A stretch of DNA of 64,000 nt from Lojkania enalia (taxonomy: Eukaryota > Ascomycota > Dothideomycetes > Pleosporales): NCBI GenBank assembly GCA_010094045.1, contig ML986590.1, positions 239,810 through 303,809 of the forward strand, written 5' to 3'. This document shows positions 13,730 to 36,722 of the stretch, in pieces (the stretch's first letter is position 1; the number at the start of each line of letters is the position of its first letter). The position numbers and the translations under genes were made by a program. The notes beneath the pieces were generated by a model, which was not told where the DNA came from, did no database searches, and was given only the letters and a program-made list of their open reading frames with translations.

Positions 13730-16700
13730 TAATAACTACCTAATATTAAGAGAATAGGAACTATTTAAAGATATCTACTACATCGTAAAATTAAGTTATA
13801 ATAACCTAAAGGCTGCAAGCCCTAGAAGAAGCTATAATATAGAAAGTATAGGAACAGGAAACTCGTATTATATAGATGTAATATAAGCTAGCTGCAGCTA
13901 GAGCCGACCTAGCTAAAGCTAAATAATAAGTATAAGTTAAGATAGCTTTACTAAGGAAGTTTAACGGTAAGAAAGAATATGTTAACCCTTTTCTTATATT
14001 AATAGAGCTGTACTTTAGGTTTAATAGTATAACCTTCTTCTTAGATAAGGATAAAATCTTAGCTACAATAATAAATATAGAAGAGATACTACTAGTATAG
14101 GCTGAACTATTTATAGTAGATTGGCTGGAGAATAGAGGTAATATAAAGAAGACTAGAAAATCTATAGACAAACTCTTTAAGAGTTAGAAAGAATTTAAGG
14201 ATAAGGTTTAAAATATCTTTAGAGAAGTAGACACAGAATAGAAAGTATAAAGGAAGCTACTAAGGCTAACCTAAATTAAGAGGGTAACAGATTATACTGC
14301 AGAATTCTAGAGACTTAGTGCTAGACTAGGATGGGATAATAGTATATTAGCAGGAATCTTCTATAAAGGTCTTAAGAACAAGATTAAGGATAATCTAGCT
14401 AGAGAAGAAAGGTTAACCAAACTATTAGAAATAATTGAATTAGTAGTTAAGATTAATAACTATCAGTACGAATAGGAGATAGAGAAAAGATCTTAGCTGT
14501 AAATATTTATACTAGTAAAGAAAGAAAGTAAGACGGTACTATAGGATAGTAATCTAATAGTCCTTAGAAAAGTCGAAAAGAATAAGGGAAAGAACTACCA
14601 ACGATTAAGGATGAGTAATCTTAAGAAAGAAAGGCTTAAAAAGGGAGCGTATCTTCTATATAGGTAAAAAGGGTACTATATAAAAGAATACCTAAATAAG
14701 AAGAAGAAAGTCTAAATAATAACTGCGCAACCTACTAATAGATACTAACTAATATAATACTAGACGTATTATATAAATAATAGATATAAGACGTACTATT
14801 TAGTAAAAGAAGGAAGTAATTATTAGCTACAGCTAAGACGGGTAGCAGTAGTTATTAAACACACAGAATATCTACTAGGAATACTAGGACTTAATAGTAC
14901 AACTATCCTAGAAAGAATAAAGTAAAAGAAGTACTAGATCTATAATAAAATATACTAGGTAAGATTATACCTCTAAGAATACTAGAACGTCCCGTTTAAA
15001 GAAGTAATATTTTAAGATAGCTAGAACGCACTAGAAGCTATAGTAAAATTAGCAGGAAAGGTTATAAATAAAGAAATATTCGAGTATATATAAGAGATAT
15101 ACTAAAGCTACCTTATAAAGCTAGCGAAAGGTAAGAAAGGGAAATATATGCTACCCTACAAGAACAGCTATAAAAAAGATTAGGCTAGCTGTTATTAGAA
15201 TAACTACTAGATATATAAAGGTATTAAGATAAAGCTAGAAGTATAGCCGAAAATAGATATAGAGTTATTACCCAGAATCTTACTATCTTAAGATAAAATA
15301 GAAGATTATATAGAAAACAGGTACTATTAGATTTATAGAAGTCTAATTTACTTTAGAATAAAGTATCTATACTAGCTTAGTAAAATCGTCGTAGAAGCTG
15401 AAGAGCTGAGGAAGGTAGTCTTAGAGGTAAAAGAGATATAAGGGGATATTAGAGGACAACTCAATATTACGGCTTATAAGATAATAGAAGTAAGTATACC
15501 TAAGGAGGAGGAATATCCTAAGAATAATATATATTTAGAAGAATATAAAGCGTTAAACTAGAAATAATATATAGTTAAATACTAGTACTACTAAGATATA
15601 TTTAGGGTACTTAGATAGTAAGGATTAGATAAAAACTACCGACTAATTAAATAGCAATAGTATTTCTTAGGATAGAAGTATAAGATATATAGTAAGTAGG
15701 TAAAGGCTGCTTACGCCTAAGAACTATAGACAAGGTATAGTATAGATAGATGTCTATTATATAGAGGAGAAAAGGAGAAGGTAGAGTTCTTCCCACCTTA
15801 GTTAAAAAACTAAGCAGCCCTTAAGGTAATAGCTATATTAAGGAACTGGGTAAGAAAGCTATTAGAAGGGTTACTAGTATAGTATTTTTATATATAGTAC
15901 TCTAAGCAGAGTTTAACAAGAGGAAGCTTAGAGTACTACTTAATAGTAGAGCTTCAGATACGTTTATATCGGTGTAATAGGTTTATAAGAATAATATAGA
16001 GTAGAGGGAAAAAGTAGTACCTTATACGATATACCTAGTAGATAATAAGCTAATAGACTATAGTAGAGGAGTCGTACTAATAGAAACTAAGAAGCAAGCG
16101 TTTAATATTGTAGGATATACCGATATAAGGAATATTAATATTATAAACCTAGGAAAATTTAACATATTACTAGGTATAAACTAGCTAGCCAAATATAATT
16201 CTAGAGTAGATTAATAGTAAAGGATAGTTTATAGGCTATAGAGCCGATTTAAGACGGAACGGGTAGTAGGATAGTATAAGGTAAGGCGTCCTTTAGGTCT
16301 ACAGTTAATACAGAGAGTATTAGCAGCTACAATAGTAAAATATTTTAAGAAGACGAAATAGACGCTAGATATTATTATAGTTTAAAAAGTATATAAGAAA
16401 CTATAGAATAATAATATACTCTAAGAAATTTAAAGGAATTATAGTAAATTTACAGGGCTATATAAAGAAGTAGAAAATAGAGGGTTATTTAAGTATAAAA
16501 AATACAACTATAAAATTATTATCGAGGATAAAAAGAAGCTAAAACCTAGTCTAATATACAACTTAAACTGAGAATAAAGAGAAGAACTTAAAAAGTATAT
16601 CTAAAAGAATTTGGCAAGAGGGTATATATAATTAAGCTAGAGTAAAATAGTATTACTAATACTATTCGTATCTAAGAAAAACGGTAAACTAAGGTTGTAC

Positions 16701-19700
16701 GTAGACTATAGACAGCTAAATAATATAACTAAGAAAAATAGATATCTATTACTTAAGATAATAGAACTTATAAGTTAGTTATAAGGAGCTAAGTAGTTTA
16801 CTAAGTTTAATATAAGAGAAGGATACTACCGAATTCGGATAAAGAAGGGCTATAAATAGAAAACGGTATTTAAAATAAAAAAAGGTCTCTTTAAATATCT
16901 AGTAATACTATTTAAACTTATAAATATACTAGTAACCTTCTAAGCAGTTATAAATAATATATTAAAAGAATACTTGGATATATTTATAATAGTATACCTA
17001 AACGACGTTCTAGTCTATATAAAGGGATTGCTAAGAGAGTATAAAGAATATATTAGAAAAGTACTAGCGAAACTATAAAAATATAAATTACTTATAGCCC
17101 TAGAGAAATGCGAGTTTTATAAGATAGGAATAGAGTTTCTAGGATTCCAGATATCTAGAGACAGTATTAAGATAGAATAAGAGAAGATTAAAGTAATACT
17201 AGAATAGCTAGTATCTACCTTAGTTAAATAAGTCTAATCTTTCCTAAACTTTGCGAATTTCTATAGGAAATTTATAAGCGGGTATTCTAGAGTAGTAGCA
17301 CCCTTAATAGAGATTACTAAGAAAGAGAAGGGGTTTAAATAGTAAGAAGTGTAGTAAAAAGCTTTCGAAAAACTAAAAGCTTGCTTTACCTTAGTATTAA
17401 TACTAAGAATACTAGATCTAGAGAAGTAATTCTAAGTGGAAACTGATACTTTAGATAAAGTAATAGGCGCTTGCTTAAGTTAGTAAGATAAAGATAGAAA
17501 GTAGAGGCTACGAGCCTACTTTTCAAGAAAAATAAAACTAGAAGAATTTAACTACGATATATATAATAAGGAACTATTAGTAATAGTTAAAGTGTTAAAG
17601 GAGTAGTAAGTATATCTAGTAGGAACTAAATACTTATTTAAAGTCTAAACAGACTATAAAAACCTTATATACTTTATAATAATAAAAGAACTTATAAGAA
17701 GATAAATATAATAGGTAGAATAGTTAGTAGACTACAACTTCAGAATAATGTACTAGAAAGGGTTAGAAAATATAGCTGCAGACGCACTAAGTTATAGAGC
17801 TAACTATATAACTAAAGAAAAGTATAAAAGAGATATAATCTTAAGATAGAAATTAGATAGATTTCTTATATATAACTATCTATAAGTCGCCTAAGTTATA
17901 AGACTAACTACGCTGGAGTAAACCTGGTAATAGAAGTTAAAAGATATATAGATAGTAGAACAATATTTAATAAGTAGTAATAAAGTAAAAGTAATTAAAA
18001 ACGTAACTTAGAAATAACTATATATATACCCGCACGTATAAAAGTAGATAATAAAAGAATTATACGAATTATTAGAATAAAGATACCTAAGAGTAGTAGA
18101 AATAGAATAAAAGCTAAGGAAGAGCTTCACCCTTACCAACGTAAGAAAGGAAGTATAAGATGTACTAAACAAGTGTTTAGAATGCGGAAAGAACAAGGCT
18201 ATAAGGTATAGGTTTTATAGATTCTTATAGCCGCTAAAAGCACCTAAAGGACTATAGGAATAGATTATAATTAACTTTATAACCAAGTTACTAGAGTTAA
18301 TAGAACTAGAGTTAAGAAAAAAATACAATATAATTATAAACATAGTAGATTAATTAATAAAATATACGTACTTTAGACTAGTATTAGAGATAATAATAGT
18401 ACCTAAACTAGCGTATAAGTTATTATATATAGTATTTGTAGAGTATAGAGTTCTAAAGTATATTATTTTAGATAGAAATAAGTTGTTTACATTTAAATAC
18501 TAGCAGGAATAGATAGGAAAAATAGGAATCTAATAACGGATGTTAACCAGCTTCTACCTATAGATAGATAGTTAGATAGAATAAGTTAACTAGAGTCTAA
18601 AAACGTATTTAAGGATATATATTAATAAATAATAAAACAATTAGGTTGAATTATTATCTATAGTATAGATAGCCTATAATAAAACAACCTAGAGTACTAT
18701 AGGGACTACACCCTTTAAAGCTAACTATAGATAGAAAGCTATCACGTATTAGAAATAGAACGAGAAAAGACCTCTAGTTCTAATAGTAGACCGAAAAGCT
18801 AAAGAAATAGAGGAAATCTACGATTAATTTAAGGAAAAAATCTAGTTAAGAAACCTTAAGATAGTAGAATAGGCTAATAAGTTAAGGATTAAGGGACTAA
18901 CCTTTAAGAAGGGGGGTAAAGTTTTCCTATTAATAAAAAACTTGAAGACTAAGAGACCCGCGAAAAAGTTGGATTATAAAAGAATAGAACTATTTCTAAT
19001 TAAAGAATAGGTCGGACCTATAAATTTTAAACTAAAGCTACTAAGTAAGATAAAAATACACCCAGTATTTTATAAGTTAAAACTAGAACTAGCGCTAGAT
19101 AACATACTACTATAAGAAAGCATTAATATAGAACTAGAATAGGAATATAAAGTAGAATATATACTAGCAAAAAAGCGATTAGAACATTAGTAGAAGTATC
19201 TAGTAAAGTGGAAAAGATACTTATAGGAGGAAAGTTTATAGGAACTAGTATAGAACCTAACCAACTATACTACGAAGCTAAAGGAGTTTTACTAGAGGGC
19301 TAGAATAATAGGTTATTAAGTAAAGTCTAGTTAGAAAGTAATAGTAGTAGTAATATAGAAGAAGCCTCTTATATAGAACTCAGAGTAATACTAGAGGGCG
19401 CCTCGGACCTGGCGGACCTCCTCTCCTCCCTCTCTAACTTCTCTTACTCTTCTATTAACTTTACCTCTCGTTTCCTAAAATCTAAACTATACTCTTTTAG
19501 AGAATAGACGCGTTTTTTAGTATATTCTAGACGAGAAAGAACCGCCTGATAGTAACACGCAGATTCCTTAAGATAATAAATCTCCTCTTTCTCAGCAGCT
19601 ATAAAATCTTAATAGGTAGAGGTAGACTTCTTATAAGCCTTCGACATATTTGCTAGAAAATAGCGAAGGGTACCCTTGGTTAGGGAAAGATTGTAGGATA

Positions 19701-20108
19701 GACCCTGAGAAAGATATTCTCTATATATAGAAGAAAGGGTAGTATTACTATAATAGTTATAGTTTGTAGACTAATAGTTTAAATAATAGTAGGACGAATC
19801 TATTATAATACTTAAGAAAAGAATTAAGTAACTAATACGATAATTCTAGGTAGAAGTATTTTCGCGCTAAACCTTTAGTATAGTAGAAGAAGAAAAAGAG
19901 GAAGAATAGAGCTATATTTATAAGCTGAGCGGGACCCATTAGAATATATAAAGTACTAACCCTAGAACGGAAAAATATAGACGCAGCCTTATAATATATT
20001 TATACTAAGTATATTAAAAGCTGGAATAAGCTACCTGCGATAGTAGGGTACTACATCTAGATAGAATAGGTAGGGTAATAGATTAAAGAGCTTCGGAATA
20101 AACCTATA

Positions 20109-20122
20109 GAGGGGGGAGCAGG
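20109..20122 (+). other. Polypurine tract of the LTR element
   Basis: GAGGGGGGAGCAGG directly abuts the 3' LTR. It is the expected plus-strand primer position in Ty3/gypsy elements. It is one of the few G-rich runs left in the AT-rich island. Confidence 0.75.
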
Positions 20123-20662
20123 TATTATAAATACAGGATACTAAGAGGCACCGCCTCTATAGCTAGAGCTTAATCCAACATCAGCTACTATAGAGGTCGA
20201 CTTAGATAAGAACCGATAGAGTAATAACAGGCAGAAGTATATTAGGGACCAGTTATTAGATAGTAAGTAGTAGGACTGTAGGAACTAGGGAGATAATTAG
20301 TTAGATAATAAAGTATAGTACAACCTATATATATAATTATAGTAGAAGTATTAGATATAGTAGGATAGACCTAATAGACCTGACGGACCTAATAAGCTAG
20401 GCTTGGCGGTCTTAGACTTAACTATATAAGAAGGGGGGATCTTCTTATAAGATTAAGTCCTTTATAGTTATTCTTATAGATTTATCTTATTACTCTATTA
20501 GACTTCTAAATATACTTATTACATTCGAAGAACTAGCGAACCTAATACTCTCTTATTACTGAAGCTACTACCTCTAACTAATCTAACGTAAATAAGGCCC
20601 CGGCGCGCGTACGACTGCGACAGCAGTCGTTATATATACTAGCAGTATATAGGTTAGTAATA
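20123..20662 (+). repeat. 3' LTR
   Basis: 540 bp beginning TATTATAAATACAGG, where the 5' LTR has TGTTATGAATATAGG. The differences at the start are transitions that would restore TG. It is followed by CTAAG, the right target-site duplication (20663-20667). Confidence 0.9.
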
Positions 20663-21474
20663 CTAAGCTAATTATTACTAGCTTAGAAAGACGTAGTTAG
20701 CTAAAAGCTATACAGCTAGGGAATTATAAGTAGGTTACAGTAATCCAGGGAATTAATACTGCTAGGTAGGCAATCCCGCCTTTTATTATCTTTGCTAGCT
20801 AATATTACCTTTCTGCCTAGTACGAGGGTAATAATATACCTAAGAATTGGGCTATTAGACTAAGCGATAACGGATAGACAACTAATAATCTTAGAGTTAA
20901 GTAGCTAAAGCACTTTATCGTATATATAAAGGACCGTTGAGTAGGCGTATAGCAACTACTTATTCTTAATAGCTATAAGAGCTATAACTCGCTCGAATTC
21001 TAGGTAATCTATAAGGAGAATAAAATCTATACTCTCTATATACCGTTGTACTTATTATACCTCTTACAGCCTCTTAATATAGGTTGCTTCTCGCTGTTAA
21101 AGTAAGCGTACAGCGGTTAGATCGAGAATCTAATCCGCGACTATATTAATCATATTATAAAGCTTAAGTTCCTTCTAGCTTTCTGTACTACCTACTAGTA
21201 ATTAATTATAAAGGATAATATCCGCGTAAGCTTTTAAGGGGCTGGTTTAGTCCTATATAATCTAGAAGTAGTAATATTAAAGCTCGATATGAAGCTTCGT
21301 ACGCTAATACTACCTGTACTAGAGGTTCTTATATAAGAAGCTAAAACACCAAGCAACCAGCGCGAATTAGAGGCTTAATTAACATTAATTCGCGATCGGA
21401 TTCGAAGGCATAAAAGCTTATCACCTACTTCTATTATTACAGCGATTAATCAGCTCAAAAAAGGTGCTGAGGTA

Positions 21475-23992: not shown

Positions 23993-25331
23993 ATGCGCTT
24001 CAAAGCCTCAATACAGAATATAAACACATTTACGAGTTCGTAGCGTTCACATACCTGCCCCGATATCTACTAATGTCGCTGTAGAGCTAACAGCGTCGCT
24101 CAACTCGCTGGGTCCGTTGGCGTGGGTCAAGCTCAGCGACGAGCAAGTATGCTTCACCATCATTCCCGAACAGGGCACGCAGGTGTGGGCGTGAGTCCGG
24201 CGCGTCCCATATTGTGACGATGCCACTTACCAACTCTGTGCAGTGTTCTTTCCATTGTAAGCGCGTCTTCTCCGCGTAGCTCGCTCGCGCAAGCCTAACG
24301 GACAACCCGTAGGATGCCATATTCGAGACCTATACCGTGCAGTCGGCCGCCAACAATGTGATCAATCTCGAAGTGCCTCTTACGTCCCTGAATCGTGCCC
24401 TCAAGTCCGCCTTGAATGCCACATCTGCTCAAATCCGCCTCACTAAGAAGGACAACCAGCCCCTCCTCGCCCTTACTATCATGACCACGTCGAGCTCGAA
24501 TTCTTACGCAGCGTTCCCCACAACAGGCGGCAACGTCAACGAGGATGACTTGGAGCAGATACCCATGGATGACGGACTTAGGGGCAACCGCGAGACCATC
24601 ATCACGCAGGAAGTGCCCGTGAGAGTCCTGGGGCCGGACACGGTGGCTGGACTCCACGAGCCACAGTGTCGAGAGCCAGACGTGCACATCATACTGCCAC
24701 CATTGATGCAATTGAAGAGCATAAGCGACCGGTTCACGAAGCTGGCGCTAGCTGGGGCGAAAGCGGGCGCGGGCGTGGGCACGTCGTCACGCACGAGGCT
24801 GGAGATGGCTGCGAACATGCATGGCTGCCTCAAGATGAGCATAAGGACGGACGCTATGAGCATTTCCTCCGTCTGGACCGACCTCAACAACCCGGAATTG
24901 GATCCTAGTCAAGTGGCTGGGGGGGAGATAGGCATCGCGGAGCACCCGAGCACGCGCATGAAGCAATTGGGGTCTGCGGACGGGCGCAGCGAGGAGGGAT
25001 GGGCAATAGTTCGAATCGACGGGCGAGATTGGGGAAAAGTCATGAGCGTGGGGAGACTTGGCGGGAGGGTCATCGCATGTGAGTTGCAAGAGCGCCTCGA
25101 TTTGCCGCCGGCCGATTTCGAGGCCTCAGGAACAAGTCGTCCGCACCCAATGGTTCTGACAATCTTGTAGGCTTCTGTCACGAGCATGCTCTCATTCTCT
25201 ACGTGTATCTTCCAAGCGATAATGGCGAGGATGAGTCCGTACTGACGGTATGAGGCGTTGTGAATTTTTCCCTTTTTGCGAGTGTGTGCCTAACGTCCGT
25301 GCAGTACTATGTCAGCTCCTACAGCGCGTAG
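23993..25331 (+). CDS. hus1: Checkpoint clamp protein Hus1
   Basis: A subunit of the nuclear Rad9-Rad1-Hus1 (9-1-1) PCNA-like ring that is loaded at DNA damage and activates the ATR-type checkpoint. Six exons give 343 residues: 23993-24035, 24085-24190, 24244-24256 (13 nt), 24313-25078, 25171-25247 and 25305-25331. All phases agree. Family landmarks are the N terminus MRFKASIQNINTFTKLTASL, then CFTIIPEQGTQVWA, INLEVPLTSLNRALKSAL with AQIRLTKKDNQPLLALTI, ILPPLMQLKSISDRFTKL, and the C-terminal block CFCHEHALILYVYLP ending in YYVSSYSA. The 13-nt exon supplies A-V-L-S-I between VW and DAIFETYTV, as expected for the family. Intron 1 has a CTAAT branch motif. The gene is intact and lies between the kinase relic and a long gene-free stretch. 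Confidence 0.93.
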
Positions 25332-28300
25332 CTCGGCTTCCTTTCAATTGCTTGCGGCCCGCTATTTAGATACCATCTGAAAGAAGCATGTCTCAGAACA
25401 GAATTGCGGCGCATATGGCGTCTGTAGGATGGATGGCGCTCGCGAATCGGTATGTCTTAGGAAAGAAATTCACCGTTATCATGTATCCAGCACAACAAAT
25501 AAACAAACATACAACTCAGCTCCTCGCTACAGATTATAGCTTTCAGCTTCCATCGTCGCGGACCCCAACCTCATCATGTCACCTTCCTAATTCGCGTACT
25601 CGTCACATGCCACAAGTGAATTATCCAACACTGGCTAGGTACCTAGCCCTAAGAAATATTCCCCTTAATAACCCCTTCGCAGCTTATCTTCCAAACTTGT
25701 CAATTGCCCACGTTCTCAGCCCGCGGCGGCGCTCCCCCCTTCTTCCCGATCCGGAAGTCTTCTAGAAGCCCGTATTACGCTTCTTTAATACCCGATAAAC
25801 GCGCCGCCCCCAAGGGTCTGCTTGGTGGGTCATTGAACGAACACCTTCCTATCTGGTGGATGGAGTGCTGAATGAAGATGTTAGGTTTTCCGGCGTGACG
25901 GGGGTATTGGGAGAGCGGCGGTTAGATGAGGATGTGTGGGGTAGGATGTACGAAGCACTGGGTGAAAAGGGGAGAGAAGGGCGGGGGCGATAATATTTAC
26001 GTAGCGAAGGTAGCGATGTCGCACGGCGCAAATACATGCTACTCCATGCTGTTCTGGCTTGATAAAGATACTAAATTAATATCCGAGTCAGGTGGGTAGC
26101 GATGTAGCACGACCGACGCAGTCCTGAACTGGCGGATCTTCTAGAAGGACGCTAGAATGGGGCCGCTGGATAATAGGACCATGTGCATACCCACCCAGCT
26201 GACGCGCATATGCATGTGCATGCATACATTCGACCTGCGCAATGGATAGAAGAGGTGGGCAGCCAATAATGCACAGTCGTCCACGGCCTTTTTGCTGCCT
26301 AGGATGTATGTGTGAATAGGTGGAGCTTTGAAGGCTGTGCGGCCACGTTTTTTGGACCAGAGTAATGGACGGCGGGCCGGAGATGAGGATATGTGACTGG
26401 TTCTTCTAGCTGCTCATTTCGAAGCGGATGGTATGCGGTTTCGAGTACGTGTGTGTGGTACAACGCAAGCTACATACCAATAGGCAGCAAACGACATCCA
26501 TGAGTGGCTGGCTGCCTGAAGTGTACGCGTTCCCCCGTTTGCGGTTCTGTGTTCGGGTTTTGAGTTTTCTGGGAGAGGTGTTGTTGCACAATATGGGGGT
26601 TCGTTCCCGTGATTGTCTGGTCTTCTTGGCGTTATGTATGCCTCGTGCCACAATCTTTTCGTTGCCTGCTCGCATATTTCGTACTCGGATGGCAGCGGAT
26701 ATGTCTTCTCCAATAATTGGCTTTTTTTTTTTTGCTCCGTATATTACGTCCTTTGACCGGTCAAGGTATTCTTATTATATCTTTCTGAAATACTGATTGC
26801 AGATTTTGGTGATTGAAGGTTGAACCGTGGTCTGCACGCGGCACAATACTAAGCCGCTGAGTGTAAATGTATGTTGTGTGGGAGAGAAGCCGCGTACCAG
26901 GGACTCGGTCTCCGGACCCGGATCTGCTGATACGGTGCGCTTATCCAGTGCGTTGGGGTGTGGCTGGCGTTTAGTCGTTCCCACCATCGTCATCACCATC
27001 ATCATCGCCACGACCGATTATGAAGAGCGTGGGGTTTACGAGGGCGCATTCGGACGCGAAGAAACGTTGCGTATGCACGTACGTATTGCCAATTGGAGAG
27101 GAATGGACAGGTGCCTGTTCTTTGTCGGTCACCATCTAGAACGAGCGCTGATGGGAAGGAACATCCTCGAGAATATGCCCGCGGTTCTGCCTAAAGCCTG
27201 CAAAACCCGTCCGGCAATCCACTCATTTGTCATCGGGAAATTTAGAAACGATATTCTCCATCTTGAATTTGAAACCGCATGCCTGTGGCCTTGCAGCTCC
27301 GTAGCTTACAAACGAGAATGGGGGCCAAGACAGGCAAGAAAGAGAAGAATAGGGTCCGAGACACTGTCGTCATATCTCCGCGAAGGGATTTACGGGACAT
27401 GTGGATACCCAAATGTTTTTGGAACGGCCCCCAAGGGGACTAGGGGATAAGAGGTAGATTCGGCGTGCGGTGCTTGACTTTGTTTTTGCTGTGGCTCAAA
27501 CGCGCTTAGGACTATAGGTACGTGCTTCGTTGACATAAGCCTAATGTGGCTAGGATGAAGAAGGTTAAGGTGATAGAGATGGGTGCCTAATGTTTAAGAC
27601 ATGTGGCGTTAGGGGAATGTGGGTCGGGTGGTAGGGCTGATGGTGGTTCGGGACGGGCCGTTTAAATTTGATGGTTTGTAGCGTTAAGGTGGTGATGTAA
27701 GGTCTTGGTGGTTTGGGCTTGAGACCGTGGGTCTATGATTGATGTGCCGTAGAGTGAGAAGTCCTTCGGATGAACATGGTAGATGCGGCGAGGAAATTGA
27801 AGCTGCTGTTATTTGCCAATGGGATAGATTATGCATGGTCTCAGAAACTGGAATTGGGAATTGTCATGAAGGCTGCGAGGAGCTGTCGCATCATGTTAAA
27901 CATCCGTAGGGCTGATCGGATATCTCACATTACTCGTATGCGAAATTCTCATATGAGAATAGTCATCACGCATCCAATGCCACTCATACCCCAGCCTCCA
28001 CAAGACTCTTTCGTGCTCTCACAGAATCTCGACTAGGACGTACGTTTTCAAGCCGACGTTCCACACCGACGTGTCCGATCAACGCCGGTGACTGCCTTGC
28101 CGCAGCCACAACTCTCAGACTCGTGGCGCTCGCAAACACGGTTTCAGTTTCCCATGGGGCTGCTAAATTGTTGCACGACGTTGAGGCTCAACGGCTGCGG
28201 CGCCTGCTCATACCGGGCCAGGTGATGTCACTGTACATCCCGAGATCTGAGTGGCTATCCGCTTAGGGTTGCTTAGATTATATTTATGGGCTTGATGGGC

Positions 28301-31300
28301 TGCCGGGACGATGCACAATGACACGGTGATGGCTTGGCTGGCTAAGCGGAGAGAACGGCTGCACGGTGTTACATGTGTATTGAGCCGCAATAGTCATGCA
28401 ACGATCTTGTGTGAGTGACGTTGGCGGCGCCCCATTCCTCAAGGGACCACGATTTGAGTATGAAGTGACGAAGGGGAATTAACCATGCGAGAAATACTTT
28501 CCGGAACCGGCATTTGAAAAGGGAGTTTGATGTTAGGCATAACCAAAGATTTGGTATCTTAGTACAATATGCAAACACACCACAGATGTGCAATGACCGT
28601 ACCCAAGACTGTAAAGCCTTACAGGCGATACCATACTAAGTACATGTAGTCTGGAGGCGCACCGGATTTCTAGATCCTCACCAAAATCGAAAGGCAAAAC
28701 CCCCATCCAAGAAGGCGAGGCGTGAACTTGCCTCTCTATCCAGAACCAGTCGGACATCCCGTTGCCTTCCAAATCTAAAAGTAACTCCTAGATATTCCCA
28801 TCCATCTGCTATCTGCCTTACCACTCGCCGCGCCTCACCTCCCCACACCTCGACTCTCCATCTCAAATGACATCCAAACTATCGGTCGCCCCGACTCGCC
28901 CTCTTCTCATGTGCTTTAAAACATGCTAGGATGTACATACATAGCAGATAATCCGCCAACCGAACCGGTGTCGAAACGCGCTAAATATTACCTACACATC
29001 GCGCGCAAAGATCGCATGGGTTAGTCATTGCCGCTCAAACGGCGAACATTCTAGCGCCGCCGATCGCCAGCCTTACGGGCGCACGTCCCGCCTCCCATAC
29101 AGTACTTACTGTGATGCAAGGCTGTCAGCCCCACGAGATAAGATCACTCGTTCGCCAGATACCTGTACGTATTATTTTATTACACATGATTATTTTTTCG
29201 GCGCGTGTACAGTATGCGGGTATGGTGCATGGGGGCTCGGAAGTCCCGGTGCGTCAGTACTCGATCGATCGTTGCGTAAAACGGGGGTAACAGAAAACTG
29301 GATATAGGAGAGATTTTAGTGCGGGATATATATGATGTGATGTGCGATCGCGTGGATGAGTCGAATAATGCATGGCATGACTGTGCATTTCCCATACACA
29401 TACGCACATATGCGGTAGATGCGATGAGGCTATGGGGCGAAGTTTCATTACCCCCCCATTCACACGGATATCGCAACGAGGCTGTGAATGACAGAATTAC
29501 TCGAAGAAATTGTATCATGTGAATTACAAATTTAATAACAGTGTGATGATGCCGTGCAACAGCGCATGGACACGACCCCCTTCGTCATATGTGCAGGGCG
29601 CGTAAAAATGGCAGCGTGTGGCGGGACGAGGCCTAGTCATATCTCTGTACAACGCGATGGTGGGAAGCGAGGCACGAATGATGAAAAGAGGACGGAACAG
29701 ATGTTCGCCGTTTCAATTACTCAAAACCACCAGAAACTGCGAGAATCTGAAATAGCCGGTGCTCGCGAGGCAGAAACTTCCCTCTACCCCTCTTATCCCC
29801 CTCGAAAAGGCGGATCCTAACTTCCCCGTAAAAGCCCTTGATTATCATAGACAGACACCCTAACGTGATTGATAACCTTCTATCCGAATGTGGAAGTCCC
29901 CTCAGAATTGGCCCAAAATAACCCTCGTCCATCACCCTACCTCCCTAAAACCCACCGTAAAAGGAATCCCCCATCACATAAAAATACCTAAATTGCCACG
30001 GCGTTCAGCCAATAACAAACACCACCCCAGCTGGCTTCTATCATATTGTCGCTAATTATCCCAAATCAGGGAAATGGCTGAGGTGATGCGCGCGGACCGG
30101 GGCACAGCCATCAGCCCTACGTTATAGAGAGGGAGTGGGGCAAATCGCGTTTATCGCGGCTGTTAGCGTGCCCGCCCACGCCTATTTTTGGAGCGCAGTG
30201 AGGAGAGTAGTGCTGCAGAGGTTGGGAGCAAGCTGATGATGGTCAGGTGCAGACTGTACATACATGTTCCTGCGTCGGCGGCGCTCTGCATTTGTCGGAT
30301 GGTGTGTGTGCTGCCGGGACGATGTTTCGAAATCATGGTCGACGGCCATGTCGGCGAGGCGGAGGCCTGCAAAGAATTCCGACTGAATCTAGTTCATTTG
30401 TTCTGTAGAACCTCATGTCCAGCTTATACGATGTCGCAGATGCCTGCCTGCCTGCCTGCCTGCCAGCGCAGCACGCTTCTCGAGCCAATACAACATCGGG
30501 CGGCACATTCGTCATAAACACAGATGGATGGTGATGGAAGCTCCCGGACACGAGTCTCGTAGTCCGATAGCAGGCCAGTCTGCCTCTCTATTCGCGAACT
30601 CTTGTCAATATTTCCCTTCGCCCCCAAAGATAGATTCAGGGGCTGGCGCAACACAGTGTCCCCAATCGATACCCAGGTCCCACGTCCTCGGGATACCTGC
30701 ATGGCCTTGCAGTGCACCTCGTGGCTCCAGTCGCACAAGCTAGGGCCCACACACCCACCTACCAAAACCCGACGCCGGAATTATCCAGATTAGAAAGTAG
30801 AGGGCGCGGAAGGGGAGCGAGTGGTGGGATGAGGTAAGAGTGCTAGGGTCTCTACATCTTTACTACGACGAGGCAGGGCTAAGAAGAGTTGAGGGCTCGT
30901 TAGGTACTTCGATCAGAGCCCTGGTCTTCGATATCTAAAAGAAAATCTGACAGTGATTGGTGGCATCGGAATGAGGCCATGCTGGATTGCTCGCTGGGTA
31001 GTTCGAGTGGCCATTTGGCAAGAATCCTCTTTTCCGACTGTTTATTGGATTCTGCAACACGGGTGGATGGGATAACACATCGATAGGAAGAGTGGCCGTG
31101 CATGGTTCAGTGCGAGTGTGCATTCCAGAATAATCCCTTCGGAGGACTGAGCTTCGATCCGTGTGTGTGTGTGTTAGTGCGCGGAGATAGAACAGACCAA
31201 TATTCGCCCTTTTTCGCAGGGCTGTGACCGGTGGGTTTGGCGATTTTGCCTGCTCGCCGGTCAATCAGAATGGAGGGATGGCGCTGAAGATGCTACCTCG

Positions 31301-32862
31301 TCTCTGGCTCAGCGCGCACATGGCAGCGTAGTGCATGGTGTGCATGGTGGTGATGCAGGTACGGAGCCATGAGCGCTGTCGTTGCTCGTCGGGGCTCGTG
31401 TCCGCGGCAGCCATTCCCCTCCCGGCGCCCAAGCGACAGACTGAGCACCGTCGAAACGGTCCCCGTTGAGCTGAGGGCGCTCCACAATACGACCACTTCT
31501 CGCTTCGAACCCATGGCCGCTGAAGCTGGACCAGCCCGCAGCCATCGTGCAGATGAGGTCGCCGACGAGCGCCTTAGCGATGCCACTGGTCCGCCCGCCG
31601 TCCCAGCATCTCCAGCATCGCCAGTATCCAGTACGCAGGTTCCAACGGCCGCCCGCACAATACGATGAGTCGAAATGAGGCGCGCTCGTCGTCAGAGCTG
31701 GGGAAAAGGGCAGTCCCATTCATGATTCGCCGAGCCCGTGTGTCGCAGGATTGCGAGGTGGGCTGCTCCGAAACTGGGACGCGGTGCTGTAACGTTGTTT
31801 CAATGAAAATATCCGCACCGCACCGCGCATCGCACAGCGCCCCTTTCCCCTTGGAGCAACGATGCACACGGCGACCCGTCCAATGCCACCATCCGTCATC
31901 GCGCGGCGGCCAGTTGACTAACGCGAGTGCGACCCCGCGATAATTGACTCGAGGGCAGAAGTGCGCCGACGATCAACGGCACGCCCGTCGCCGCCAGCAT
32001 AGCGTAAACATTGTAGAGTAGAGACAATCGGGGTCCCGCAGAAATGCGAAATCGGTGTAACGCCGGGGCAGGCATCTCGAGATGCTCATTCGCGGGTCTT
32101 GACGGCCTGCAGCGAGCGGTGGCCAGAAGAGTATGGCCTGTATCTGCTATGTCTGTGTGTATGACTGTGTTAGGCGGCAGCCAATCATAGCCGCTCCAGC
32201 GCTTGTATGGCAGGCCAAGAGCTGGATCCCCTGCCTGCCCGCCGTGAATGAACGCTCCCCACGCTTTCGCACGCTCTCGGGTTTCTCTGGACGCTGCACT
32301 AGAGAGGCCTCCTCTTCGCAGTATCACGATGAATAATGAGCCGGGCAGAAAAGAAGAGAAGGCAATAGGCAGCCCTCTCCGACCAAGGCAGACACACACA
32401 CTCACCATTCCTGCGCACAAACACCAGACCACCGCCGCAAACCCCCAAACCACCACCACCGCCTTAACAAGTCACTCAGACCAAGATCATCACCCCCGGC
32501 CCGCTCACCTCAACCCTAGCGCGCGATTCCCAGAAAGCTGCCCCGGCACACGCTCGCTGCAGCAGCGCACAGCTTTCCAGCATCCCATCAGCCGCCCGCC
32601 CACAAGCCTTACCTAGCCCTGGCCCTCGGCGTCCGTGCCCTTCACAGCATGGGCCATTGCGGCTCCCATCCACCACCCTCACTGCCACACCCCAGCACAC
32701 CACGCGCTGCATCACACCTATTCCTGTCGGGACCAGGATGCTCAGTGCGCTCACTAGTAGATGCCTGATGGTGGCTTGCCCATGGCGGGAGTTCTAGTCC
32801 GGTAACGCAGGGAACCTGGCGAACCCTCTCCGCTCGCTCGCTCGGCCTTTTCTTCTGGAACA
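25332..32862. other. 7.5-kb gene-free region upstream of the micropeptide locus
   Basis: I find no supportable gene on either strand. Several open frames of 100-207 codons exist (for example 26827-27450 + and 31896-32459 -), but they lack conserved motifs, have repetitive or low-complexity composition, and overlap each other on opposite strands. Local features are a (TGCC)n run at about 30445-30463, a short GT run near 31161-31174, a TGCATG-rich patch at 26210-26226, and generally GC-moderate, un-RIPed sequence. A long unmutated spacer ending in a TATA box suggests an extended promoter or regulatory region for the transcript at 33 kb. Confidence 0.55.
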
Positions 32863-32870
32863 TTTATAAA
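32863..32870 (+). promoter_or_regulatory. TATA box of the micropeptide transcript
   Basis: TTTATAAA preceded by GAACA. It is followed by a pyrimidine-rich leader with no ATG from 32875 to 33209. An ATG lies 2 bases beyond the box (32872) and opens only M-P-G-R-stop; it is probably upstream of the transcription start. Confidence 0.6.
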
Positions 32871-33209
32871 GATGCCTGGAAGGTAGGCCTCAACTCATTC
32901 ATATCAGTCACCTTAAGTCAGTCATTCGGCACCCAGCTTCTTTCTACCAATCATTCCTACATCTGCTTTCTTTTGGATATAAGGTTCAGGTTTTCTCTAC
33001 TTGAGTCAGTCTTTCGGATCTGTCATCCACTTTAAGTCTTCCGTCTTCGACTATCTTCTGTTACTGTCTGTGTCTGTCTGCTATACACTCAGCCAACTTC
33101 TAAATTCCTCTTCTCTCGTCCGAACACTTTCCAAGCGACTATATCTACACTCTCTTCCCGTATTTTCGTCGTCAGCACCTTCATCGCTGTCTCATCCCTC
33201 GACATTTCT

Positions 33210-33233
33210 ATGGGTCGTGGAGGCTACAACTAA
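33210..33233 (+). CDS. Micro-ORF 1, heptapeptide MGRGGYN
   Basis: ATG GGT CGT GGA GGC TAC AAC TAA. This is the first ATG after the long ATG-free leader, so a scanning ribosome would meet it first. It belongs to a set of four copies of the same heptapeptide whose nucleotide differences are all synonymous. The peptide is glycine/arginine-rich and resembles a single RGG/RGGY unit of RNA-binding proteins, but no function can be assigned. Translation is inferred, not shown. Confidence 0.7.
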   Translation: MGRGGYN

Positions 33234-33265
33234 GCACACATTACATCTCACAACCAAACATCCAC

Positions 33266-33334
33266 ATGGGACGCGGAGGCTACAACCGAATCTTCACCAC
33301 TACATTATTCATGGGCCGCGGCGGCTACAACTAA
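33266..33334 (+). CDS. Micro-ORF 2, two MGRGGYN copies joined by an 8-residue linker
   Basis: The second ATG of the leader opens 22 codons: MGRGGYN, then linker RIFTTTLF, then a second MGRGGYN starting at the ATG at 33311, then TAA. Codons are GGA CGC GGA GGC TAC AAC in the first copy and GGC CGC GGC GGC TAC AAC in the second. The internal copy begins with its own ATG in frame, so it can be made alone or as part of the 22-residue product. Loss of one stop codon after the first copy (TAA to CGA) or gain of the linker would explain the fusion. Confidence 0.7.
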   Translation: MGRGGYNRIFTTTLFMGRGGYN

Positions 33335-33411
33335 GCTCCCGCCTACTGCACAAGTCAATCCACACAAGCCAGGAGGCGCCCTACCAGCCCACTACCATCC
33401 TCGCCGTTATC

Positions 33412-33435
33412 ATGGGCCGTGGCGGATACAACTAA
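33412..33435 (+). CDS. Micro-ORF 3, heptapeptide MGRGGYN
   Basis: ATG GGC CGT GGC GGA TAC AAC TAA. It is the fourth ATG in the leader and again starts the same heptapeptide. Like micro-ORF 1 and the second copy of micro-ORF 2, it is followed by AAGC counting from the stop's last bases (TAAGC). Its codon combination differs from all other copies. Confidence 0.7.
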   Translation: MGRGGYN

Positions 33436-33541: not shown

Positions 33542-33658
33542 ATGCGAATACAAAACCCCTTCCCCACACACCACCGCCCACGCTCGAAGACCTATCGAAA
33601 GCGGCGCATCGAGCGATGGCGGCAACGCACCCTACCGCCACCGCCTCCCCCCTTCTAA
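33542..33658 (+). CDS. Small basic proline-ending ORF, 38 residues
   Basis: The fifth ATG of the leader, with a good context (CCCAAAATG). The product starts MRIQNPFPTHHRPRSK, continues with a dense basic tract (YRKRRIERWRQR) and ends in six prolines plus Phe. It is predicted to be nucleic-acid-binding or nucleolar by composition only. It lies downstream of the MGRGGYN ORFs, where it could be the main ORF that they regulate, or one more peptide of a polycistronic message. No homologue is recognised. Confidence 0.5.
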   Translation: MRIQNPFPTHHRPRSKTYRKRRIERWRQRTLPPPPPPF

Positions 33659-34670
33659 ACAATTATTAGATTCGTTTTATTTCCTTCGGCTTCTTCGGTT
33701 CGGTGGTATGATGCTTCTCGATTCATAGACTATTGTATATATATCACAGCCATTAGCGTAGCGTAGCGTAGCATTATCCTTCCCTTTTTTCTTTCTGCTC
33801 TCTTATTTTTCCAGCATCTAGCGAGCGCGTTCCGGACGGGTACGGGATTGATTACAGACATGGACATGGGCATGGGCATGGATATGACTATGAACGGGCA
33901 ACGGGTATGGTACGGATTTGGGCGTTTTGTGATTTTCTAGACGGCGGAACAACGCTCTTCATTGAGCATGTGTATTTATGAGGCATCTGGATCGGCGTTG
34001 ATTTATTATGCTTTTGAAAATTTTTGTTTTTTGGTTTTGGTGCTTTTGTGGTTCTTGATGGTCGCCACTGGGCTGGCCCGCTGGGCTTTTCCGTACTTCC
34101 GCTCCAAATTCTATGACTTCTGCAACTTGCTGTTTACCCCCAACCCCCTCTATTGAATACCATCATTTCGAACTGTCTCTCTACTTCCCGACACAGAACC
34201 TAAATCACAAAAGAATAATAAATCAGCACTACTCCTTCCGGCGCGAACAAGTAAAAGTTCGTGAACACGGCTCTTCACGACAAACGTGGAAGTGTAGAAC
34301 GGGGAATATTATGGCGGGAAGTGTGAGCCGCGCGGAGTTGCGACACACAAACCGCAACGGAGTCGACGGTATACAGACTATGCCGCACATCTAACCCATT
34401 GTCTTATTGTCTTATCCGCTGTCATCATGGATCGTGTCGGGATGTGGCTCAAGGCGGCACAGAGCGCCGGTAAGAGGTAGCAACCGGGCGATCCGGGGCT
34501 AAAATCCCCAGCACCTTGACATCCGAACAACAAAGCAGAGAAAAGGTGTCACCGGTAATACTGGTATTTTTTGAAGTTTTTTTTTTTTTTTTTTTTTGTT
34601 GGGAGGGGAAGGGGGCTGAAAGCCTAGCTGACGAAGGAAAAGGGAGAGAAAAAATTGGAATGATAAGGAC
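33659..34670. other. 3' region of the micropeptide locus and MSS1 downstream spacer
   Basis: T-rich sequence with TATATATA near 33740 and a GCGTAGCGTA repeat at 33756-33772, consistent with a 3' untranslated region. It holds a Met-rich 26-codon frame (33860-33940) and a 63-codon frame from 33968 to 34156 with a hydrophobic segment (FCFLVLVLLWFLMVA), neither supported as a gene. A 22-base T run at about 34578-34599 lies just beyond the last MSS1 coding exon. Confidence 0.45.
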
Positions 34671-36518
34671 TCACTTTTCGAAAACGACGCCCAGGACTTC
34701 TTCCACGTCACCGCTATCACCACGCCCCGTTATTCTGGCCAGAGTGTCGGCGGCCAGCCGGAGTGACTCGGCAGCTACGACAATGTCGACCTCGCCTACT
34801 TCAGGCCTGTCTAGCGCTTGTGTACATTGATTGTGCGGCGCGGCGATGGTATCGCGAACTGCGGAGAGGAAACTGCCAAGGTGGGAAAGACACTCTGAAA
34901 GCAGTGCGCGCTGGCGCTCAGTTGCACCGAGAGATTCTCGCCAGACTGATGGGTCGGGCTCTGATTCGGGAACAATAGCGGCGGTTATTTCTTTGAAGGT
35001 TTCTAAGAGGCTGTTAAGGAACAACTGGATATTTCCCGGATCCTTTGTTGCAGCGAGGGTCGATGTGGCTTCCTTGCACGATATGAAGGTTATGCTATCG
35101 GCCGAGATGTCCAACCTAGATTGAATCTTGTCTTTCCAGGCCTGTAGTGCAGTGGAGCTCTGAGAGACCTCGTCAATCTTATTGATAGCAACAACGACTT
35201 GAATGCCCATATCAACACATTGTTTTACTGTTTTCGTGACCTCGGGATCCATTTCTGCTGTAGCATCCTGAACGACGATCAGAACGTCTGATTCAATGGC
35301 TCGTTGCTTAGCGCGCTTAATTCCTTCTTGTTCCACAGCGCCAATAACATCAGGCCCTACCACACCAGCCCTCCTCAACCCAGCCATGTCGCCGATCTTG
35401 ACGAGCCATCCACCTATATCAACGCTCACTTCGACAACATCTCTCGTAGTCCCGGCTTCTTGTGAGACAATGGCGGCTTCCCGGCCGATGATGCGATTCA
35501 AAAGGCTGCTTTTGCCCGCGTTAGGGGCTCCAAGTAGAGCGACATTAATCCCACTGCGCAAAAGCTCCCCTCGTACGGCGTTTGCGACGTGGGCCTCGAT
35601 TTGCGCGACCAGTTTTTGCACCTGATCGGCAACTGAGGCACAAAGCTGGACTGGAGATTCGTCAAAGTGCTGGTCCTCGGAAAAGTCAATGAGCGCCTCC
35701 AGCTCTCCACGAGCCTGCAATAACTGCACGCGCCAATGCTCGTAGCGGGCAGATAGGGACGATGTAGTACCACGAACTGAGAGCTTCCGCTGCTGCTCTG
35801 TAGACGCTGATAGTGTCTCACCTAGCGATTCAATCTGCGGAAGATCCATGCGATTGTTCGCAAAGGCGCGTCTGGTAAACTCGCCTGGCTCGGCGTACCT
35901 GATACGATGATTGGCTTGCGATGGCGTGCCATTAGGAGGGCGAGCGCACTCAGGTATGGCCGCCAGTATTGCGCGAACAATGGCTGGGCCACCGTGGACG
36001 TGGAACTCAAGTACATCTTCGCCGGTCACGGTGTTCGGTCTTGGAAAGTATAGCACCAAAGCCCCTGAGTCAAGTAGAGTGTCTGGGGAGGGAGGGGCGC
36101 TGGGCGAGTATAGCTTGCGCAACGCTGCATACCGCGGTTTAGGAAATGGCGTCGAGGGGCAAATACGCTGGTAAATCTGATCCTCGGGTCAGCGCTAGAT
36201 GAATGATGTGATGGTGCTTGATAAGGAATGATATACCTGTCTACATGCTGGACCGGATATGCGAATCACGGCAATTGCAGCCCTCCCAGGTGCAGTAGAA
36301 AGGGCATATATCGTCGGATCCTCACGGTTAAACACATCATAGTGATAGAGACGAGTATGAGGTGGACCCAAGGTCCTCTGTGAATTGGGGATTACGACAG
36401 GGTAGTGAAGACCATGAAGCCGTCCAAATGGCGGTCGGACAAAAGTTGCGGTCAATAATCGATGCTTATTCGATGAGATTTGATGTATTCTCCTCAGTGG
36501 CCGGATGGATGCTCTCAT
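34671..36518 (-). CDS. MSS1: Mitochondrial tRNA-modification GTPase Mss1 (MnmE/TrmE family)
   Basis: With its Mto1 partner this GTPase makes the 5-carboxymethylaminomethyl-type modification of wobble uridine in mitochondrial tRNAs. Exon 1 is 36237-36518 and exon 2 34671-36176; the 60-bp intron (GTATAT...TCAG) keeps frame and gives 595 residues. The start at 36518 yields a basic, Ser/Arg-rich mitochondrial presequence (MRASIRPLRRIHQISSNKHR); an upstream ATG at 36581 would add 21 residues. The N-terminal folate-binding TrmE domain begins TIYALSTAPGRAAIAVIRISG. The G domain shows GAPNAGKSS (G1), GTTRD (G2), DMAG (G3) and NKID (G4). The family's C-terminal Cys-x-Gly-Lys tail is absent: the frame ends VLGVVFEK-stop. 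An in-frame GTGAGT at the stop suggests a further small exon that I could not place. It shares a 204-bp promoter with MAK16. Confidence 0.92.
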
Positions 36519-36722
36519 TCCTAGAGCAATGGTGCGAGCACATTGTGATGAAGAATGAGTGCGTTGATGAGGTCTCCGCATTTCGGGTGCACGGGCACCC
36601 GCTAGCCTTCCCACCGCCAAGATTTCGTGTCGAAAACGCTCCCGCTCCCCAAAAAATTACAAAAACTGCCTCAACTTTCAAAGCCTGCATAAACAGCATT
36701 CATAACAAGCGATTCCGGCGCT
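36519..36722. promoter_or_regulatory. Bidirectional promoter between MSS1 and MAK16
   Basis: Only 204 bp separate the two start codons of these divergent genes, both of which serve translation (mitochondrial tRNA modification and 60S ribosome assembly). No TATA box is obvious on either strand. Confidence 0.6.

Follow-up and report, generated by a model that had tools for sequence, protein, structure and literature searches.

Clustered micro-ORFs repeating the heptapeptide MGRGGYN in Lojkania enalia: a candidate polycistronic peptide gene

Genes composed of several micro-ORFs with a shared motif are best known from arthropods, and a short segment of the genome of Lojkania enalia (Pleosporales, Dothideomycetes) raises the question of whether a fungus could carry a gene of the same form. 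The window, that is, the whole stretch of 64,000 nucleotides that was analysed, lies on contig C13 of an assembly of 58,143,767 bases in 400 contigs. The codon pattern ATG-GGN-CGN-GGN-GGN-TAC-AAC, encoding MGRGGYN, occurs in it at positions 33210, 33266, 33311 and 33412 and nowhere else, and 226 bases hold three stop-bounded ORFs with four copies of the peptide (Table 1). We tentatively read the locus, with a probability of roughly 0.45, as a polycistronic micro-ORF gene whose short peptide would act in trans.

The sequence-only reading had described four copies of the heptapeptide in consecutive micro-ORFs. The four copies stand, but they do not form four separate ORFs, since copies 2 and 3 share an ORF of 22 codons: copy 2 is followed by CGA, with no stop, and the same frame reaches copy 3 15 codons on. 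Two further statements, that every + strand ATG between 32875 and 33541 starts MGRGGYN and that three of the four copies end directly in TAA, were borne out, only those four ATGs being present there. Each of the three TAA stops is followed by GC, and all three stop-bounded ORFs, including the fused one of 22 residues, finish with MGRGGYN-TAAGC. Three reading frames are used by the four copies, and when the window was shuffled 100 times with its dinucleotides preserved, four matches to the pattern were never reached.

Table 1. Positions in the window of the MGRGGYN copies, the surrounding putative elements and the neighbouring genes
Feature	Position	Strand	Description
Hus1 ORF	24313-25170	+	nearest Pfam-supported ORF seen upstream of the copies
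TATA-like TTTATAAAG	32863-32871	+	candidate core promoter, read by eye
Putative 5' leader	33000-33209	+	pyrimidine-rich (C 0.32, T 0.38), ATG-free
Micro-ORF 1	33210-33233	+	ATG GGT CGT GGA GGC TAC AAC TAA, MGRGGYN; -3 base T
Spacer, copies 1-2	33231-33265	+	starts with the TAA of copy 1; G 0.03, no GT
Micro-ORF 2/3	33266-33334	+	22 codons, MGRGGYNRIFTTTLFMGRGGYN; contains copies 2 and 3
Copy 2	33266-33286	+	-3 base C
Stretch, copies 2-3	33287-33310	+	inside the 22-codon ORF; G 0.04, no GT
Copy 3	33311-33331	+	-3 base T
Micro-ORF 4	33412-33435	+	ATG GGC CGT GGC GGA TAC AAC TAA, MGRGGYN; -3 base A
Next ATG-started ORF, 38 aa	33542-33658	+	Arg-rich (9 R, 2 K); -3 base A
MSS1/TrmE mitochondrial tRNA-modification GTPase	34671-36620	-	ORFs 34671-36122 and 36195-36620; convergent neighbour of the copies

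The copies vary at only 4 of 21 columns, and these are the third positions of codons 2-5, the four fourfold-degenerate sites, which agrees with the earlier claim that the differences are confined to third positions of the Gly and Arg codons. Of the 24 pairwise comparisons at these sites, 16 show a difference, which is near saturation, whereas the remaining 17 columns are invariant, with the two-fold sites in TAC and AAC among them. The chance that four randomly placed variable columns among 21 would hit exactly these sites is 1/5985; the test is small but fair, since every ATG of the stretch is a copy and none was picked by its peptide. The intervening sequences are indeed unlike, as had been noted: ungapped flank identity in the six pairs is 4-10 of 20 (5-10 upstream and 4-9 downstream), and no tandem array spanning the copies was found. 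Thus, the silent-only differences at near-saturated fourfold sites, the use of three frames, the unlike flanks and the uniqueness of the pattern in the genome (see below) sustain the earlier proposal that there is selection on the peptide. Selection likely acts on MGRGGYN itself, the constraint being that seen among copies of one genome, and the copies are either old duplicates kept by peptide selection or convergent on the peptide.

Some features of the copies could reflect a nucleotide-level constraint, namely the constant TAC AAC and the GC that follows all three TAA stops. Furthermore, the 24 codons after Met include no GGG, AGR, CGA, CGG, TAT or AAT, a narrow choice with P ~5e-6 by the codon usage of six window ORFs and P 3e-4 by that of the calpain repeats described below, in both cases for a codon set picked after seeing the data; it may represent preferred codons or some nucleotide-level constraint. 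If the words were nucleotide elements, such as protein-binding or small-RNA sites, the common peptide would be incidental, and the 17 constant columns with their two-fold sites, together with the TAAGC after three copies, would be accounted for. We regard this reading as improbable, given that the variation sits exactly on the fourfold sites, that all copies begin at ATG in the + direction, and that neither a stable RNA structure (z +0.70, with 154 of 200 shuffled sequences doing equally well or better) nor an Rfam family at the gathering score was detected, the single match at a relaxed threshold being on the opposite strand with a score of 21.5 versus a cut-off of 68. Folding no better than that of shuffles suits an open, scanned leader.

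Across the whole assembly, where pattern-search counts may be lower bounds, the MGRGGYN pattern matched these four sites and no fifth, whereas a calculation based on 14 fixed and 3 two-fold positions predicts ~0.05 matches. A search that demanded TAA and CGN as the Arg codon but tolerated two mismatches again returned only the same four sites. The looser pattern M-G-R-(G/D/E)-G-Y, which lacks the Asn, yielded 7 sites, namely the four copies and three singles, 2 of which encode MGRGGY. Within the window, none of the other heptapeptides that start at an ATG is encoded a second time within 400 nt. Among 20 stretches (200 kb) taken from the same genome as controls, the sole heptapeptide found at least 3 times was the poly-Met of an ATG microsatellite, and one other, MIHKLFM, recurred twice. 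The latter is encoded at L016:3656-3701 by two words that are 25 bases apart and carry one silent difference.

New in this analysis is a match within the same genome: once its Met is left off, the peptide reads GRGGYN, and this, by translated sequence, is the unit repeated in the predicted tail of a calpain-family protease. GRGGYN was found at 12 sites in the genome, with ~3.5 expected by arithmetic; these comprise the 4 copies, 5 sites in the calpain-family ORF, which fall within 171 bases of contig C4, and 3 scattered sites. The tail of this ORF (L045:1426-3912, corresponding to G000:C4:269925-272411) carries 12 repeats, GRGGYN five times and GRDGYN seven times, and 7 of the 8 GRDGYN sites found in the genome belong to it. 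The codons differ between the repeats, and no ATG stands ahead of the unit. The ORF matches Peptidase_C2 (Pfam) and contains HAYS and NPWG, and the ORF directly upstream, presumably an earlier exon, contains DCWF; we take DCWF, HAYS and NPWG to surround the expected catalytic Cys, His and Asn, respectively. Four control hexapeptides, permutations with unchanged composition, had 3, 3, 2 and 0 genome sites, each on its own contig and none clustered. This statement on clustering concerns forward sites; matched backwards, the patterns gave 2 sites for GRGGYN, 2 for GRDGYN and 4, 5, 2 and 8 for the permuted hexapeptides, and the MGN codon of the search patterns also allows Ser (AGY). Since GRGGYN is RGG-like and low in complexity, and the match to the calpain came to light post hoc, we take the link between the predicted micro-ORF peptide and the tail as a strong lead, short of proof.

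In the literature, a search for GRDGYN returned nothing, and the portions of the papers retrieved with GRGGYN dealt only with nuclear import, phase transition, nanocarriers and DNA-peptide conjugates. DDR48-like repeats, as they appear in the relevant part of one report (PMC10512284), have a different motif from GRGGYN and were set aside. A septal-pore role for the calpain was dropped, as the passages found on that subject made no mention of calpain.

The presence of a GRGGYN-repeat protein in the genome lends some substance to the thought that the cluster is what remains of an old gene for such a protein, broken by stops and frameshifts. Yet we hold this to be very improbable, because the ATG stands at the same place in all copies, there are zero non-silent changes despite the near-saturated fourfold sites, and the copies are not spanned by a tandem array. 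A spliced repeat protein was also considered and is ruled out by the use of three frames and by the lack of GT in the stretches that separate copy 1 from copy 2 and copy 2 from copy 3; in the first of these spacers, no GT-AG intron can therefore start. The stretch between copies 3 and 4 has a G content of 0.16 and two GT.

For the preferred reading, a polycistronic gene with a peptide acting in trans, we propose the following course of events. One + strand mRNA would begin past the TATA-like site near 32.87 kb. Scanning ribosomes would then leak past copies 1-3 or reinitiate there, so that all copies could be read: T, C and T at -3 of copies 1-3 are weak start contexts, and these together with the tiny size of the ORFs would favor leaky scanning or reinitiation. 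Methionine aminopeptidase is expected to take off a Met preceding Gly, and the mature peptide would thus be GRGGYN. In the last and weakest step, free GRGGYN, being identical to the repeat of the calpain tail, would compete for, or occupy, whatever partner binds the tail. The lack of a stop of its own after copy 2 argues against this scheme, as a free heptapeptide would need one. That the leader contains no additional ATGs (2.7 expected; P of none = 0.067 in a first-order simulation) is weak evidence by itself.

Carried to its full extent, the proposal would describe a fungal gene yielding only copies of a peptide of six or seven residues, the calpain tail repeat in free form, as a genome-encoded minimal ligand that switches the protease or the partner of its tail by competition, and an independent counterpart of tal/pri; we consider this full version unlikely. 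If true, a fungal product of 7 residues would, to our knowledge, be one of the smallest genome-encoded peptides on which selection acts, and it falls below the size that gene finders report. The link to the calpain tail, if true, would supply a directly testable partner.

The main rival is that the micro-ORFs are cis-acting uORFs. Nascent MGRGGYN would then delay or stall the ribosome at termination, or govern reinitiation, and thereby control a downstream ORF of the same transcript, for which the 38-aa ORF at 33542 is a candidate. We judge this reading somewhat less probable than a peptide acting in trans. The constant MGRGGYN-TAAGC end of all three stop-bounded ORFs suits arrest at the stop, and the next ATG, at 33542, has an A at -3. 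Against it, the peptide is kept in copy 2 although this copy lacks its own stop, and four copies of a single arrest peptide in one leader would, as far as we know, be unusual. Moreover, the short ORFs found before MSS1 include no convincing main ORF. The 38-aa ORF is a candidate last cistron or main ORF, but open frames of its length are not unusual, arising in 58% of simulations, and its Arg content exceeds expectation only slightly (P 0.042). A 41-aa stretch that includes it, used as a protein query, found no homologue and no candidate with three shared words, and the open frame that contains it has no Pfam match. Stalling by very short peptides has precedent, as the stalling uORFs treated in part of a published account (PMC9648851) include the six-residue MAGDIS of the human AMD1 uORF.

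Nascent-peptide uORFs, such as that of human AMD1 and the one encoding the fungal arginine attenuator peptide, resemble the present locus in that a leader-like stretch encodes a tiny peptide whose sequence is fixed and which precedes a stop. These systems have one copy, whereas the Lojkania locus has four and, among the ORFs found, no recognisable main ORF. The reinitiation leaders of GCN4 and cpc-1 share with it the arrangement of several short uORFs in a long leader, and the relevant part of a published description gives four for GCN4 and two for cpc-1 (PMC5487733). They differ in that no bZIP main ORF was seen downstream of the copies here, where three + strand ORFs were tested and none has a Pfam domain, and that the peptide encoded in Lojkania itself looks constrained. 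The calpain tail, with its GR(G/D)GYN units, has the identical hexapeptide five times and its GRDGYN variant seven times in the same genome, but as internal repeats of a long protein.

The closest parallel in form is tal/pri/mlpt, for which the sequence-only reading had suggested a fungal counterpart. In both cases, several short ORFs with a shared motif occupy one locus and are followed by one longer, Arg-rich ORF. The likeness in form thus holds up, whereas family membership does not, as all four fungal copies are MGRGGYN and LDPTGXY is absent; the locus, found in a fungal host, is accordingly not filed as a member. According to sections of one study, tal/pri/mlpt ORFs share LDPTGXY and the last peptide carries an Arg-rich GREETSSCRRRR domain, and in a moth-midge copy of tal the four repeats measure 11, 10, 11 and 29 aa, the last peptide being 39 aa long (PMC6124123). 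The Lojkania locus comprises ORFs of 7, 22 (with two copies) and 7 aa, here in three ORFs with four copies, and then the 38-aa ORF, which is candidate coding and Arg-rich but lacks GREETSSCRRRR. Excerpts from two further papers describe Pri peptides of 11-32 aa that retune the ubiquitin ligase Ubr3 (PMC11475943) and mlpt peptides conserved across arthropods (PMC6428570).

Searches for relatives returned no peptide relative among predicted proteins of 42-133 aa, collections in which ORFs of 7 aa are not expected, and no protein relative, or candidate with three shared words, of the 76-aa open frame around copies 2 and 3. The codon pattern had no match in GTDB contigs, nor was the two-copy pattern found in viral contigs, results that say little about fungi. 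One viral-contig match (L005), in which Ser replaces Arg, is solitary in a viral contig of 251 kb and was taken as chance. With MSS1 as an anchor, five stretches of viral contigs matched a word, and none of the five encodes a relative. Literature searches for MGRGGYN and for Lojkania enalia found nothing, and the portions of the literature retrieved on fungal polycistronic or repeated micro-ORFs described no fungal gene of such kind.

The copies lie in a gene-poor interval of ~9.5 kb between Hus1 and MSS1; an MSS1 exon of 483 aa has 100% identity along its entire length with a Lojkania enalia record. None of five ORFs tested in this interval, a selection of its short ORFs, had a Pfam match. 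Between the copies and MSS1, the + strand has short ORFs only, MSS1 itself being on the opposite strand. The segment from Hus1 to the micro-ORF cluster (25171-32860) is long and poor in genes, with no Pfam match in the two ORFs tested, and could be a large promoter. At 33860-33940, a 26-codon ORF starting MDMGMGMDMTMN is derived from a GACATG-like tandem repeat; by eye, it resembles the Met-rich start of a copper transporter, but it is too short. Farther upstream, positions 14001-20000 form an AT-rich block (GC 0.27-0.30), which we presume might be a RIP-mutated repeat region, and the longest ATG-free gap on the + strand of the window (2.7 kb, 18540-21289) starts inside this block.
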